Shown here piece by piece: positions 7,352-63,888 of a DNA stretch of 64,000 nucleotides. The DNA lies in contig NC_008319.1 of the NCBI RefSeq assembly GCF_000014585.1, positions 1,550,001 through 1,614,000 on the forward strand. The letters are read 5' to 3'. The notes under the pieces were generated by a model. It saw only the letters and a list, made by a program, of their open reading frames with translations. It was not told where the DNA came from and searched no databases. Source of the stretch: Synechococcus sp. CC9311 (lineage in GTDB: Bacteria; Cyanobacteriota; Cyanobacteriia; PCC-6307; Cyanobiaceae). Both the position numbers and the translations under genes were made by a program. The first letter of the stretch is position 1; the number at the start of each line of letters is the position of its first letter.

Positions 7352-8440
7352 TCAATCGGTTCCCGCGAGTGATTGATCACATGCTTGCTGACTGATCAGC
7401 CCCTCTGACAGGCCAGGCACCATGGGAGCACCGGTTTGAATGCTGTGCGCCCACCAGCTCTGGATGCGGGCCACCGGCGCCACACGACCATCACTCCAAG
7501 TGGTGGGGAACATGAACTCAGCATCCGCCTCGATATTGCGAGTGGCCTCTCCCATCGGCGTGTGCCACAGCCCGAAGCCATGGACATAATCCTTTTGGTT
7601 TGAGCTACCGAGCGTGAGGCTTCCATGAGATCCATAGATCTCCAGCCAGCAACCTCGACCATTGCGGGCCACAGACGCCAAATTGACCTGGGCTGGAACC
7701 CTCTGATCAGAGCGGCCCTGCCAATCGAGCTGCATCTGAATCAGCGAGACATCTTCAGCATCCACTGGAGCCATGCCCCCACTGGGATGGGGACGCTCCT
7801 TAATCGACACGCTATTGAGACCTTGAACGGATCGAATCGGTCCGATCAACCAAGCCAACATGTCGAAAGCATGGGTACCAAGGGCACCGAGCACACCTCC
7901 ACCGGCTTCCCGTTGTGAATACCAGCTCCATGGTCGAGACGCATCCGCACGGCTGCTCATCAACCAGTCGAGTTTCACCAGCCACGGAGTGCCTACGGCT
8001 CCTGCCTCCAGCATCCTCGCAGCCTGCATGAACAGAGGCACAGCCCGATACTCATAATCCACCGCAACACTGAGCCGGTTCTGGATGGCGATGCGTTGCA
8101 GCTCTGCCACCGATTCAGCCTTGAGAGCAACAGGCTTTTCAAGCAACAAGTGTTTGCCTGCTTTTAGCGCTTGAAGGGCTAACGCAAAGCGAGGCTCAGG
8201 AGGAGTGGCAATGATCACCGCCTGCACGCGAGGGTCGCTGAGCAAAGACTCCCAATCGTGATAACCAGGGAGATTGTGCTCAAGGCAGGCCTGATCTAGG
8301 CGTTCACGGCGGGGATGCCAGAGCGCTACTCCTTCCAGATCAGATTGAGCGGCAAGGGCTTTCAGATGAACCGATTCACCAAAGCCAAGACCCGCAATCG
8401 CCACTCCAATGGGGGAATGGCTTGAAGATGGGAGCGCCAT
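7352..8440 (-). CDS. Gfo/Idh/MocA-family oxidoreductase
   Basis: An NAD(P)-dependent sugar or inositol-type dehydrogenase family protein. The N-terminal Rossmann motif is VAIAGLGFGESVHLKAL and the family signature EKPVALKAESV contains the usual Lys. The C-terminal substrate domain contains GGGVLGALGTHAFDM. I start at the ATG at 8440. The frame is open 23 codons further, but that part reads into the neighbouring gene. Substrate is unknown. Confidence 0.85.
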   Translation of the reverse strand: MALPSSSHSPIGVAIAGLGFGESVHLKALAAQSDLEGVALWHPRRERLDQACLEHNLPGYHDWESLLSDPRVQAVIIATPPEPRFALALQALKAGKHLLLEKPVALKAESVAELQRIAIQNRLSVAVDYEYRAVPLFMQAARMLEAGAVGTPWLVKLDWLMSSRADASRPWSWYSQREAGGGVLGALGTHAFDMLAWLIGPIRSVQGLNSVSIKERPHPSGGMAPVDAEDVSLIQMQLDWQGRSDQRVPAQVNLASVARNGRGCWLEIYGSHGSLTLGSSNQKDYVHGFGLWHTPMGEATRNIEADAEFMFPTTWSDGRVAPVARIQSWWAHSIQTGAPMVPGLSEGLISQQACDQSLAGTD

Positions 8441-8459
8441 AAGGAAGGCCGAGTTGGGG

Positions 8460-57315: not shown

Positions 57316-57681
57316 ATGCTTACTGGTGTAGACCTGCTCACTAAGGTCAAAGACCTTGGCGATGTATCAAAAACCGATTTAGCCACTCAGTGCGGCTATG
57401 TTTCTCAGAAGAAAGATGGAAGTAATCGAGTGAACTTCACGGCGTTTTATGAAGCACTTCTAAATGCAAAAGGCATTGATCTTGGTGGCGGAGCAGGGGG
57501 AATTGGCAAAGGTGGGCGCAAACTGAGCTACATCGCCAAAGTTCAAGGCAATGGAAATCTTTTGATCGGGAAAGCCTATACAGCAATGCTTGAGCTCAAT
57601 CCTGGAGATAATTTCACCATCAAACTAGGTCGAAAGCAAATCCGGCTTATCCCTGAAGGCGCGGAAGACACCGAAGAATAA
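57316..57681 (+). CDS. cyAbrB-family transcription regulator
   Basis: 121 residues. A helical start (LTGVDLLTKVKDLGDVSKTDLATQCGY) and the C-terminal AbrB-like part (GNLLIGKAYTAMLELNPGDNFTIKLGRKQIRLIP) match the cyanobacterial AbrB group, which adjusts nitrogen, carbon and hydrogen metabolism. Its own terminator follows. Confidence 0.9.
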   Translation: MLTGVDLLTKVKDLGDVSKTDLATQCGYVSQKKDGSNRVNFTAFYEALLNAKGIDLGGGAGGIGKGGRKLSYIAKVQGNGNLLIGKAYTAMLELNPGDNFTIKLGRKQIRLIPEGAEDTEE

Positions 57682-57780: not shown

Positions 57781-57975
57781 TCAGACGTTGTCCCATTTAA
57801 TTTTGCCATCAAGGAGCTCCATGAGTTCCTCCAGCTTTTGATTCGTGACGCGAACATCTGCAGCATCTGGCATGGTGCCCTCTTCGATAAGAACGTTGTA
57901 GTGCTCTCGACACATATTGCGCAGTTCCTGCAAACGCTTCTTGGTGATGGTGCGCTTCTCTTCTGCTGTCGCCAT
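57781..57975 (-). CDS. Hypothetical 64-residue coiled-coil-like protein
   Basis: Highly charged and helical: MATAEEKRTITKKRLQELR, then NQKLEELMELLDGKIKW. ATG start. No domain recognised. Convergent with the cyAbrB gene. Confidence 0.5.
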   Translation of the reverse strand: MATAEEKRTITKKRLQELRNMCREHYNVLIEEGTMPDAADVRVTNQKLEELMELLDGKIKWDNV

Positions 57976-59166: not shown

Positions 59167-59364
59167 ATGTACACGATTGAACACTTATCTGATGAAAGCT
59201 GGACACCAGAAGTAACGAGAGAGACCGAGTTCAAAGCATTTGTAGATGCTCGAACAAAATGTTTGGCTACAGGGAAAATTTATAGAGTCGTGGATGACAA
59301 ACACAATGTAAGGTACACAATTACATTAGATGCCTGCAAAAAACAACTTTTTTCAAATCATTAA
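59167..59364 (+). CDS. Small MY-I-LS-W family protein (copy A)
   Basis: 65 residues starting MYTIEHLSDESW, with RETEFKAFVDA and IYRVVDDKHNVRYTI. It aligns without gaps over about 50 residues to the product of 63682-63888 (MYRIQELSSSGW, TTEIEAFWAA, ARVLNPLDEMVFIM): strand, loop, helix, strand, strand. A small cytoplasmic protein family not otherwise known to me. Confidence 0.55.
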   Translation: MYTIEHLSDESWTPEVTRETEFKAFVDARTKCLATGKIYRVVDDKHNVRYTITLDACKKQLFSNH

Positions 59365-59376
59365 TAGCTTGAGACC

Positions 59377-59526
59377 TCAAGGTCGTGATTGCAAGGCTGG
59401 CATAGCCTCTTGCAGCTCGGTAGAAGATTCAGAATCGCTAACGCCCTTGGTCAGCTGGAATGCCAAAGCAGCTAATCCAAGAAAAGCCAAAATAACGACT
59501 ATGAGCAAAATTTTTGTTGGTGACAT
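59377..59526 (-). CDS. 49-residue membrane protein
   Basis: From the ATG at 59526: MSPTKILLIVVILAFLGLA then LAFQLTKG and an acidic end (SDSESSTELQEA). One membrane helix. Converges with copy A. Confidence 0.5.
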   Translation of the reverse strand: MSPTKILLIVVILAFLGLAALAFQLTKGVSDSESSTELQEAMPALQSRP

Positions 59527-59765
59527 GAACGTCAGTAGGTTTAATAAAATATAGGATATCGATAAAAATTCAGGCAATCCAGGTTCCATTAAATCGTAAA
59601 ACCACCATACTCTAGGCAAATAACTAAAGCCAGTAGCAGATCAATTCAATGTATTACTAGACCAATCGTCAATTAATGAGTACTTCAGCGAGGGAAGTAA
59701 GCCTACAGAGACAACCAAAACAAGAGACTAACCACAAAACCTAATAAACCATGTCAATCGAACAC

Positions 59766-59791
59766 AAAAAAACCGCCCAAAACACGAGCGG
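59766..59791 (-). terminator. Intrinsic terminator, minus strand
   Basis: CCGCTC and GGGCGG form a six-base-pair stem with one G-T pair and a seven-base loop, followed by seven T. No gene ends close upstream on that strand; the nearest minus-strand stop is at 60185. Confidence 0.7.
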
Positions 59792-59945
59792 CCTTTAACC
59801 AAGCAATCCCCATCACCCGGCCTTGTTCACCACATTGAGATGTGATGTGCAGATCATAGTGACAACACACGCCAACAGAGCACGAGTATCGATTCGCTCA
59901 AGGTTGTGACTACATTATGTAAAGCAGTCAACAGGTAGACCAAGC
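59792..59945 (-). ncRNA. Possible small RNA ending at the 59766 terminator
   Basis: No reading frame on the minus strand here. A CACAT-CTCA-ATGTG hairpin lies about 50 bases before the terminator. TTGACT is present near 59930 as a possible -35 element, but no -10 at proper spacing is clear. Alternatively this is the 3' leader of the 60185 transcript. Confidence 0.3.
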
Positions 59946-59948
59946 AAA

Positions 59949-60139
59949 ATGTATTGGAAGCTCAACGACTCTAACGATGGATGCAGTGAGAAGAAAACAC
60001 GGAACTTGACGAGCCTTCATTGTTCGATGCAGAACGCTATCAAGTGATCGACGTCGAAAACAAACAACATTCCTTCAAATCTTTTACTGATGCTACATAA
60101 TGCATTCATCTCATTAAATGCAAGACGGCAAGCATCTGA
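59949..60139 (+). pseudogene. Broken member of the small-protein family
   Basis: An ATG frame MYWKLNDSNDG shifts frame near 59985 and then reads ERYQVIDVENKQHSFKSFTDAT, a TAA, and CIHLIKCKTA. The YQVID and FKSFTDA pieces resemble the YRVVD and FKAFVDA pieces of copy A, although in other order. At least one frameshift and one stop are needed, so it is not functional. Confidence 0.35.
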
Positions 60140-60184
60140 CTTAGAGAATCATTATCCAAAGCAACCCACAGCTCAAGCAAGGGA

Positions 60185-60400
60185 TTAAATTATCACAATT
60201 GAGTATTCAACCCGCTCATCAGAGCAACACAAATCCCCATAAAAGCTCTCCAGTTCATCATAGGCATCATCGTAGCGAGTAAACTTTAATTTAGTGATCG
60301 AATCTTCCTGAAAATCATCACGAACAATGCGATACAACGGTTCATCCGCATCTACCTTTTTGGTATTTGACTGAGGGGCCTCACATGATTCGCTTTGCAT
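60185..60400 (-). CDS. Small acidic hypothetical protein
   Basis: 71 residues: LYRIVRDDFQEDS, TRYDDAYDELESFYGD, RVEYSIVII. Strand-helix-strand layout and the YRIV/DDAYDE pieces recall copy A, but similarity is too low to be sure. Codon use is AT-rich. Confidence 0.5.
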   Translation of the reverse strand: MQSESCEAPQSNTKKVDADEPLYRIVRDDFQEDSITKLKFTRYDDAYDELESFYGDLCCSDERVEYSIVII

Positions 60401-60577
60401 AGAATCACAATATCAACAAACAGAATAGCCTGTCTAGATCAATGATCGACAGAATGCAATCAAACCAAGGCCTGATAACAAGTCAATCTCTTGGCTCATC
60501 AGCATCACATCAACAAAAAATAGATCTAGGAAAAACTATCGAATTAAACAAGTTTAAATGAATTTACTACAGTTCAG

Positions 60578-60862
60578 TCAAGAAACATCTACACCCTTGC
60601 CAGAATAGAAAGCAAACCGATAACGTATAGCTTCGGCATCAGGTTTTGGTGTCTCATAGCTCCAAGCCACATTAGTAATAATTTGGTCGTCAACAATCAA
60701 ATCCCAGTAGCGCGCCTTTCCTTTCCAACCACACACCGACGTGTGCCGGGAGTCGCGAAAATATTGAATTTGCATTGCTTCACGAGGGAAATAAGGATTT
60801 CCATCCACATAAACAATATCATCGCTTTCAGCAAGAAGACTACCGTTAAAAATTGCTTTCAT
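60578..60862 (-). CDS. DUF427 protein
   Basis: 94 residues from the ATG at 60862 (MKAIFNGSLLAES). Motifs YFPREAMQIQYF, SVCGWKGKARYWDL and NVAWSYETPKPDA are typical of DUF427, a small beta domain. Function unknown. Confidence 0.9.
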   Translation of the reverse strand: MKAIFNGSLLAESDDIVYVDGNPYFPREAMQIQYFRDSRHTSVCGWKGKARYWDLIVDDQIITNVAWSYETPKPDAEAIRYRFAFYSGKGVDVS

Positions 60863-60895
60863 TGAGACCCAGTTTTTACCTATATTAAGTAGCAA

Positions 60896-61257
60896 TGTGC
60901 TGAGGTGTGAGAATTGGTATCGCTAACACAAATGAAGTCGGGTCAGAACCAATCAAATAGCACGACAAAACCAATAGTCTTTTTAAGAATTCTCCAAGGC
61001 AAACTCTAATCTAAATTGGCAATTGTCTGCACATTTTGTTCCAAAGAAAGGAACAAAAGAATCAACTTTTACTAAACACTGACTGCAAATATTATCAATA
61101 CAGTCAACGCATAGACGTGGAGAAGCCACGTAAAGACCAGACAACGAACCAGCTTTTTATTCTCTGCCAGAATCTATTTCGATCTGAAAAGGAATAGGAG
61201 AAAATGGAGCGCAATTGCACGATGCTGACTTAGACCATGAATAACTGAGTCAATCCA
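60896..61257. other. Non-coding stretch
   Basis: About 360 bases, no gene recognised. Promoter of the DUF427 gene lies at its left end. Confidence 0.5.
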
Positions 61258-61422
61258 GTGGCCTTTCTCAGCAGAATCTGCGCAACATCCAAAGGTTCAA
61301 CAATCGATGCCGTTGGGAATGGAAAATACCGAGTCTGTGACAAGGAATTCACATGTTCAGAGGTTGATGGATTGTGGAAAGCCTATGAAATGCTTAGAAC
61401 TCAGGAGCAGCGAGTGAGCTGA
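61258..61422 (+). CDS. Possible 54-residue protein or gene remnant
   Basis: GTG start. GKYRVCDKEFTCSEVDGLW then KAYEMLRTQEQ. The YRV.D....F......A piece recalls the small-protein family of this region. A stop lies just upstream in frame, so it may be the tail of a broken gene. Confidence 0.3.
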   Translation: MAFLSRICATSKGSTIDAVGNGKYRVCDKEFTCSEVDGLWKAYEMLRTQEQRVS

Positions 61423-61496
61423 GAATCGTCTAGCCGACAACTTTTCTAAACCAGCGGCGACTCGAACCAAACGGTTGACCCATCGGTCATCTCAGC

Positions 61497-61546
61497 AGCA
61501 AGTAGACACGACCTCAGATCATTTGAGGAAGTCATGTCTACTTGCT
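61497..61546. repeat. Long inverted repeat
   Basis: AGCAAGTAGACA and TGTCTACTTGCT are a perfect 12-base pair, and CCTCA/TGAGG pairs inside it, giving a bulged hairpin of 50 bases. No T-run on either side. It lies 33 bases past the stop of the 61579 gene. Confidence 0.5.
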
Positions 61547-61578
61547 TGAACCTTCATGTTTACATGGCTGATCACCGA

Positions 61579-61962
61579 TCAATAACATGCATCCCCTTGC
61601 TTAAGCTTATAAGCAGCTTCAGGATAGGCATTCTTCCAAATAACACAATTTTTCTCTTCCTGAGACAAACTTGTAAATTCATTTTCGGAAGAGGAAGTGA
61701 TGGCTGGTAGATTTTCATCTTGCAGCGGTTTAGCATCAGTTGCTTCTGACTTAGAGACACTATTAGGATTTTCACGATCAAGGAATGATTCATCCAAATA
61801 AGGCTTGGATTCAGATTGAGTTACTTCCTGAGGCGAATCCAACTGTATTTCACTATTGAAAGTATTTCCGATTAATGTTGAGCCAATAGAAAAGCCCACT
61901 AAAGAGAAGCTGATTCCCACCAACAATTCAATCCTGTTGGCTGAACGTAATTTTTTGAGCAT
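61579..61962 (-). CDS. Membrane-anchored or exported hypothetical protein
   Basis: 127 residues. MLKKLRSANRIELLVGISF leads into a hydrophobic stretch (residues 13-32), then a Ser/Glu-rich region and a short Cys-containing end (NCVIWKNAYPEAAYKLKQGDACY). A G-rich ribosome site precedes the ATG. No domain recognised. Confidence 0.5.
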   Translation of the reverse strand: MLKKLRSANRIELLVGISFSLVGFSIGSTLIGNTFNSEIQLDSPQEVTQSESKPYLDESFLDRENPNSVSKSEATDAKPLQDENLPAITSSSENEFTSLSQEEKNCVIWKNAYPEAAYKLKQGDACY

Positions 61963-62395
61963 ATCCCCCCAGCTTGCAATACATTACATATTAGAGATAA
62001 GATCATCTTCTAGCAGGTCTGGTGGATAAAATTATTATTAGATTTCACGAAATAAGCAAGAATGCCTAATCAAATAGTTTGGACCATCTCTTGAAGACAG
62101 TCCATCACACCTAGGTTGAAACAATGGCTTAAAAGACTAAGCTCGAAGTCAAATCACTCTTGGCCAAAGAATAAAAAATCAACTATAAAAAATATATCAA
62201 AAACAAGAGGAGTTTCGAAACATTATGATTCGAGGATAATTCAATAGAAAAGATGCCCACATCCGTCAACTATTTTGCATACATTCATGCAAAACAAATG
62301 AGCCAATGAAGACATTCTAGGTTAGATAGGTACTAAATTTCAGCCCAATGATGCAGCGTTGATTAGAGGCGTAGTCGTCACACCTCGAAGCATAA
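61963..62395. other. AT-rich intergenic region
   Basis: About 430 bases with many stops in all frames. I see no gene, RNA or strong repeat. Confidence 0.5.
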
Positions 62396-62635
62396 TCAAC
62401 GATGGCTACCAAGAGGTTCAATCCAATCAACTAGCACCTCACGATGATGCAGCCAGCGTTTTGAGACGCGGCATCCAAGATTGACCTGCCCTTCGTCCAT
62501 AAGACGGCCTAAACGAATGGCAGCTGCTTCTTCAGGCCGTGAAAAGGTCTGAAGGTGATCTGTCAGCCATGTGACCTCATCTTCCGTAATTATCCCCGTA
62601 GAGAGGGTTTCCAGCACTAACTCACCGACAGTCAT
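62396..62635 (-). CDS. Hypothetical helical protein
   Basis: 79 residues from the ATG at 62635 (MTVGELVLETLSTG). Helical (EDEVTWLTDHLQTFS, EEAAAIRLGRLMDEG), then a Trp-rich basic end (SKRWLHHREVLVDW). The frame is open 22 codons upstream but that part holds the palindrome below. No domain recognised. Confidence 0.55.
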   Translation of the reverse strand: MTVGELVLETLSTGIITEDEVTWLTDHLQTFSRPEEAAAIRLGRLMDEGQVNLGCRVSKRWLHHREVLVDWIEPLGSHR

Positions 62636-62641
62636 TGGGTT

Positions 62642-62659
62642 TGTAACAACTTCGTTACA
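62642..62659. promoter_or_regulatory. Operator-like palindrome
   Basis: TGTAAC-AACTTC-GTTACA, six-base arms and six-base spacer, seven bases upstream of the chosen start of the 62396 gene and 80 bases from the divergent start at 62740. The form suits a dimeric regulator. NtcA sites are GTA-N8-TAC, whereas this is N10. Confidence 0.35.
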
Positions 62660-62739
62660 TTCTGGCGCTTCCGTGGCCCAGCCGTGGCCCGCAGTCCACA
62701 TAGAGAGTTTTTAAGGTGGTGATACCAACAGGCAATTTC

Positions 62740-62898
62740 ATGCAAGCCACTCTTGCCCAGCAATTCGAAACAGAATCAATCAAGAGGCAAATCGATTCCA
62801 TGACTGACTTGGCTGAACTCCAAGCACTAGCGAGACATCTTGCAGATCTCTACCTAAAACAACGCGTTGCTACTGCCTGGGTCATTGCAAATAAATGA
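62740..62898 (+). CDS. Small helical protein
   Basis: 52 residues from the ATG at 62740 (MQATLAQQFETES). Amphipathic helices: MTDLAELQALARHLADLY and LKQRVATAWVIANK. A GTG eight codons earlier is another start. Sequence looks well conserved in style, but I cannot name a family. Confidence 0.55.
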   Translation: MQATLAQQFETESIKRQIDSMTDLAELQALARHLADLYLKQRVATAWVIANK

Positions 62899-63144
62899 AC
62901 CATCTGATTTCAAGCTCCTCCTTTCGAAGAACATTTAACTTTTAGACTTAAGCCTTACAGATAAAATCAATCATTTACTGCTCACACCTTTATAACAAGA
63001 AAGTCTTGCCTTAATAAAGAATACTTACTCGCAAAGACACTAAAAAAGCCTGTTACCAGCGAATGTTCAATAAAACTCTCTTGCTTTTACAGCTATCTGA
63101 AATTAACAACACAACAAGTTGCATTGCTTATTGTTTAATGTTTA

Positions 63145-63408
63145 ATGTTTTTTTTGCAGACCACGCTTTCATCTATCTTTTCTACGTCAAATCACCTTGA
63201 ACCATTACCAGGACACTGGTCACAGAGATTGAAGCCATCCCTCACCAGGTTCAAAGTTGAAAGACGGTTCCAAGCAGGCTGGCTGGGTGCTCAAACTGCT
63301 CTGCAGTTCGACGCTCGAGCTGAGCAATCATCACGAGATGAGCCGTGGTTCGAATCGCTGAAAGCAGCGCTAAGCCGATACAGAGAGGACAGTGAGTCAA
63401 AGTCATGA
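63145..63408 (+). CDS. Hypothetical protein
   Basis: 87 residues. The first 20 are hydrophobic/polar with unclear start; the rest is basic then acidic and helical (RRFQAGWLGAQTAL, WFESLKAALSRYRED). No domain recognised. Confidence 0.4.
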   Translation: MFFLQTTLSSIFSTSNHLEPLPGHWSQRLKPSLTRFKVERRFQAGWLGAQTALQFDARAEQSSRDEPWFESLKAALSRYREDSESKS

Positions 63409-63489
63409 CGTCAATTTTGGAGCCAGTTCACGCCTCTGACTCCATTCCTTGCCATTTCTTGACCTAAAGGAAGATTCGACAGCTCATCA

Positions 63490-63678
63490 TCAGAAGCGAC
63501 ACCCGACCTCATGGATCAGGTCAATACTGTTGGGCCATCGCCGAATGTGCTCGTAAAACTCCATGGCAAGGATGCGAGCCTCCCAAGCGTCGGATGCGTA
63601 GAAACAAGCTTCCTGTTTGCTGCCATCTGACAGCTTGTAGCGAATCGTGAAATGTTTGTAGTGACTGAAATAAGCCAT
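63490..63678 (-). CDS. Small hypothetical protein
   Basis: 62 residues: HYKHFTIRYKLSDG, EACFYASDAWEARILAMEF, NSIDLIHEVGC. Strand-strand-helix-strand with the SDAWEA piece, a layout like the small family here (copies A and B). ATG start. Confidence 0.5.
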   Translation of the reverse strand: MAYFSHYKHFTIRYKLSDGSKQEACFYASDAWEARILAMEFYEHIRRWPNSIDLIHEVGCRF

Positions 63679-63681
63679 CGG

Positions 63682-63888
63682 TTAAGCCACCATTTCGTGA
63701 TCAGTCTGAATCGCGGTCGAACCCGAGCGATTCATGATGAAAACCATCTCATCCAAAGGGTTCAGGACTCTCGCAGATTGTCCTTCCTGCTGGCTGAGGG
63801 CATGAGCAGCCCAGAAAGCCTCGATTTCAGTTGTTCTGGATCCATGATCCATCCACCCCGAGGAGCTCAGCTCTTGAATTCTGTACAT
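63682..63888 (-). CDS. Small MY-I-LS-W family protein (copy B)
   Basis: 68 residues from the ATG at 63888, MYRIQELSSSGW. It aligns along its length with copy A at 59167 (same spacing of MY, I, LS, W, R, TE, AF, A). The codon next to the 63490 gene stop is three bases away, so the two form an operon. Function unknown. Confidence 0.5.
   Translation of the reverse strand: MYRIQELSSSGWMDHGSRTTEIEAFWAAHALSQQEGQSARVLNPLDEMVFIMNRSGSTAIQTDHEMVA

Follow-up and report, generated by a model that had tools for sequence, protein, structure and literature searches.

Dmd, the antitoxin of phages T4 and RB69, neutralises the toxin LsoA or RnlA; the anti-CRISPR protein AcrIF9 inhibits the type I-F Cascade by binding; and Gp2 of phage T7 binds and inhibits RNA polymerase. 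These small binding or inhibitor proteins were the three nearest solved folds, all as weak matches, to P1, one of five small proteins of Synechococcus sp. CC9311 considered here. In cyanobacteria, the small proteins CP12, PirC and PipX regulate enzymes or regulators via protein-protein contact (PMC7760959). P1 and its relative P2 are likewise small, lineage-typical and cyanobacterial, and protein-protein contact is the analogy proposed; the resemblance is in kind only, with no sequence or fold sharing known here.

The window analysed was a stretch of 64,000 nucleotides (positions 1,550,001-1,614,000) of the 2,606,748-base single-contig CC9311 genome. The ORFs of P1 and P2 were confirmed where a preliminary description had placed them, on opposite strands and with about 4.3 kb between them (Table 1). 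Their products aligned without gaps from the start methionine and shared MY, I4, LS7-8, W12, R18, TE20-21, AF24-25 and A28 at equal spacing, as that description had it, with additional matches at G36 and RV40-41. BLASTP found 15 of 43 residues identical (E 7e-8 as a single comparison); at whole-genome scale this match dropped to E 0.15-0.2, which is marginal for the pair alone. The anchored ungapped alignment scored 63, compared with 9.0 +/- 3.6 in shuffled sequences, and the score was reached by none of 5000 shuffles. Profile searches covering 1045 window ORFs and 10450 shuffled decoys joined the two proteins in both directions. P1 was retrieved at E 1.3e-10 by a profile from 22 P2-type sequences (best decoy E 0.2) and P2 at E 3.6e-5 by a profile from 32 P1-type sequences (best decoy E 2.5); the member sets were collected by an iterated search that started from P1, and are thus not wholly independent of it. 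Searches over the genus with P1 and with P2 had returned many relatives, and the iterated search also united P1 and P2 in one set. Profile-profile comparison gave a probability of 99.7% (E 1.5e-25) with a P1 set that contained four P2-type sequences; corrected sets were used in the cross-type searches. Judged from these alignments and profiles, P1 and P2 are homologous, as paralogues in one family.

Members of this family were recognised by the core residues W12, A24, A28 and R40 together with a profile score well above the decoys, and both P1 and P2 had these properties. The core motif was [YF]xI-E/Q-x-L...W...(T)E..A...A.......G...RV. W12, A24, A28 and R40 were invariant in a diverse 17-sequence alignment, in which no His, Cys, Asp or Glu was invariant. 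Searches of Pfam, NCBIfam and PHROGs gave no family that hit two or more of the 17 members (best E 0.0089), and no description of the family was found in the open-access papers searched. The family was previously unnamed and uncurated, and is named here the W-TE-A-A-RV small-protein family; it occurs widely and in several copies per genome across a lineage of major ecological weight, but curated family libraries lack it.

Table 1. Small genes of the P1-P5 stretch and the upstream regulator gene, in window coordinates
Feature	Coordinates	Strand	Product and assignment	Basis
P1	59167..59364	+	65 aa; W-TE-A-A-RV family, P1-type	profile membership, 8 orthologues, model
P2	63682..63888	-	68 aa; W-TE-A-A-RV family; ATG start at 63888	orthologues, dN/dS, profiles
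P3	63490..63678	-	62 aa; different family	orthologues, dN/dS, hhalign
P4	60185..60400	-	71 aa; small-protein family without kinship to P1/P2	orthologues, dN/dS, hhalign
P5	61258..61422	+	54 aa, GTG start; own small-protein family	orthologues, hhalign, co-clustering
cyAbrB-type (PF14250) regulator gene	57316..57681	+	upstream of P1	PF14250 E 1.6e-27

P3, P4 and P5 had been described as similar to P1 and P2 in strand-helix layout, with weaker matches, and as part of one family with them. The layout held for P3, whose predicted structure was strand-strand-helix-strand (bbab; pLDDT 76), but kinship failed for all three: the hhalign probability of belonging to the P1/P2 family was 0.9% for P3, 1.0% for P4 and 3.0% for P5. 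By profile comparison, P3, P4 and P5 are three distinct families outside the P1/P2 family. Of the duplicated local family that had been suggested, the paralogy was borne out, with three P1/P2-family copies in the CC9311 genome (the third at 1,135,880-1,136,035, outside the window), but the local set of five was not, as three of the ORFs belong elsewhere. The five anonymous ORFs therefore became four separate conserved small-protein families. At E <= 1, the P3 family was detected in 69 of 151 Cyanobiaceae genomes, small ones (1.5-2 Mb) among them, and had two further copies in the CC9311 genome. The P4 family was confined to the CC9311 clade among the loci examined by iterated search.

Orthologues of P1 were 90-97% identical in eight relatives (dN/dS 0.029) and those of P2 46-97% identical in eight (0.113). 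The corresponding values were 93-98% in eight relatives for P3 (0.019), 66-74% in seven for P4 (0.167) and 91-100% in eight for P5 (0.049), each dN/dS being computed against seven or eight orthologues. All five genes are coding and under purifying selection, and with such low ratios the term fast-changing was wrong within the CC9311 lineage. Despite this, the subtypes of the P1/P2 family have strongly diverged from each other outside the core. Gene order and spacing of the P1-P5 stretch were conserved in eight related genomes, so that the label accessory end was not apt either. P3 starts three bases past the P2 stop, and the two genes therefore probably share one transcript. An N-terminal extension of P2 was considered and rejected: the 82 open codons 5' of the ATG had a pN of 0.167 and a pS of 0.175 and contained stops in some relatives, showing that the open frame upstream of this ATG is non-coding. 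Elsewhere in the window, a 64-aa ORF at 57781-57975 on the minus strand was 97-100% identical in eight relatives (dN/dS 0.015) and had no family match; it is an unnamed small protein, conserved even more strongly.

Of 300 Cyanobiaceae genomes, 92 carried the P1/P2 family, the largest number of copies in one genome being 10. In a phylum-wide draw of 386, all matches fell in Cyanobiaceae except one borderline match with a stop, and the named relatives retrieved were nearly all Synechococcus. As far as found, the family is limited to Cyanobiaceae, in marine Synechococcus and close relatives. In an 88-member tree, all 32 P1-type sequences, from several Synechococcus lineages, formed one separate clade (support 0.81), and the P2-type sequences formed no single clade; the deeper branches of this tree are unreliable because the sequences are short. 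The tree places the split between P1 and P2 types before the CC9311 clade arose, and with the P1-P5 stretch also syntenic in eight other genomes, a recent local duplication is therefore not needed. In UW105 and UW140 (L168 and L171, both 8001-8450), two P1-type members were arranged tail to tail with about 40 bases between them. One contig labelled Porticoccaceae (NYWV01000058.1, L162) carried P1 at 97% identity together with a cyAbrB gene, and is probably a misbinned piece of Synechococcus DNA in that MAG.

The AlphaFold model of P1 was beta-beta-alpha-beta-beta-(alpha), with a pLDDT of 90.8 and a pTM of 0.75 (E2-8, E11-18, H21-35, E39-42, E48-52, H54-62). P1 is thus predicted to form a small sheet of beta-beta-alpha-beta-beta order, followed by a C-terminal helix that varies, and we infer the same fold for P2 from its sequence kinship. 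The P1 orthologue in genome G006 (L103 6084-6285) was split across frames near its C-terminal end; given this split, the helix may be dispensable. A Foldseek search of the P1 model against the PDB gave no match at E <= 0.001, and all P1 matches to PDB structures had a fold-match Z of 6 or lower, where the tool deems values meaningful from 8. The best was Dmd (5hy3_B; also 5i8j), similar in size and in strand-strand-helix-strand-strand order (Z 6.0, below the meaningful level; 2.4 A over 54 residues). However, the fold alignment had 6% identity and a Foldseek E of 0.36, no sequence relation was detected, and Dmd is a phage gene whereas P1 is a host chromosomal gene. AcrIF9 (7c78, 6w1x) was also a small fold resembling P1 (Z 5.8, again below the meaningful level; 2.7 A over 57 residues), but with 14% identity and no sequence link. 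T7 Gp2 (4lk0, 4llg) showed a partial likeness to P1 (Z 4.2, 2.4 A over 45 residues), as well as to the P3 model (Z 6.0, 1.8 A over 49); it is a phage protein, and no significant sequence relation was seen. PsaD and the RuBisCO small subunit were rejected as matches to P1 (Z about 4), being taken for a common arrangement. The P1 fold is a common small arrangement that says nothing on function, and this commonness could be the source of the weak fold matches.

The closeness of Dmd and AcrIF9 in the PDB would fit a domesticated phage-type protein, descended from takeover or counter-defence proteins of this fold and now neutralising a toxin or blocking an invader. Many unnamed small phage proteins in a viral structure library also matched P1 (best TM 0.74, prob 1.00, E 0.012), including proteins of the Synechococcus phages S-CAM7, ACG-2014f, S-CBP1 and S-N03, with no fold match at E <= 0.001 in that library. 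The patchy presence of the family and its amplification in one stretch of genome G018 are consistent with such an origin. However, no sequence relative of the family was found in the phage records or viral contigs searched, and PHROGs gave nothing above noise. PADLOC had no match for P1 or P2, and for six neighbouring genes it gave nothing that exceeded noise. In the CC9311 clade the genes also keep their syntenic place and are under strong constraint, which argues against phage descent; we consider this origin improbable. No toxin-like gene was recognised beside P1 or P2, a plasmid collection had no match to one divergent family member, and a profile search of PDB sequences with the family gave no match and did not return Dmd. 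In G018, nine of the ten family copies lay in one 215-kb stretch (G018:C1, about 1,000,000-1,215,000).

We propose, with moderate confidence and by analogy with the cyanobacterial proteins above, that the P1/P2 family consists of host regulatory microproteins. Its most conserved positions (W12, the N-cap-like T20-E21, the helix alanines 24 and 28, and R40-V41) look structural and no catalytic set is conserved, which points to a protein that would act by binding, probably to another protein. The closest solved folds, each a small binding or inhibitor protein, fit this role, although as matches they are weak. Each paralogue would be small and cytosolic and would bind a single host protein, inhibiting or adjusting it, and different copies would serve different partners. 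If the members do act as inhibitors or adaptors of proteins, they would enlarge the small group of known cyanobacterial regulatory microproteins.

The genomic distribution of the P5 family bears on whether the P1/P2 members have a joint role. Among the copies listed, 29 of 83 P5-family copies lay within 5 kb of a P1/P2-family copy, compared with 1.3 expected from circular shifts in 30 single-contig genomes, and 17 lay within 2 kb, compared with 0.5 expected. Since related genomes are non-independent and some genome lengths were rounded, this excess is strong but is not a calibrated probability. Such genome-wide clustering of two unrelated micro-families is a concrete handle on function. Recurring in several lineages, it speaks against the members being ordinary lineage-specific orphans that have a stable fold in common and no joint molecular role, each kept for its own reason, as does the W, A, A, R core common to members. 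Sequence outside the core is nevertheless very different from subtype to subtype and neighbourhoods vary among lineages, as expected of such orphans, and this explanation is rather unlikely in our estimate. P5-family copies flanked one P1/P2-family copy on both sides in G018.

A PF14250-type gene was near a family member in seven of the nine genomes of the CC9311 clade, and in the window it lay about 1.5 kb upstream of P1. In several other lineages such a gene was also near P1-type or related members: in G018 and G002 (divergent, 256 bp), about 5 kb away in G025, directly adjoining a member of a different subtype in G076, and 1.1 kb away in G166. This proximity, and the weak fold match to the RNA polymerase binder T7 Gp2, would suit a transcription accessory factor that works with the neighbouring cyAbrB-type regulator or itself binds DNA or RNA polymerase. 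On the other hand, cyAbrB was absent near most family loci, no cyAbrB gene was found near P1 in two of the nine genomes of the CC9311 clade, and cyAbrB genes number 1-14 per genome; the linkage was noticed post hoc, without a controlled statistic. We regard a role in transcription as unlikely, and continue to favour host regulatory microproteins. A bolder reading, to which we assign a low probability, is that the P1/P2 and P5 families form a recurrent two-family micro-gene module, sometimes with cyAbrB, which is amplified in Synechococcus hot spots and adjusts host or phage proteins as an undescribed microprotein regulatory layer.

A gene with a 499-residue product, immediately beyond the end of the window (L095:6561-8060), was also near family members in four other genomes (G157, G208, G294 and G299). 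Although GH57-like in appearance, it had no family in Pfam or NCBIfam and is treated as unassigned. Genes for a Band 7 protein, an orange carotenoid protein and a desaturase-family protein lay farther on.
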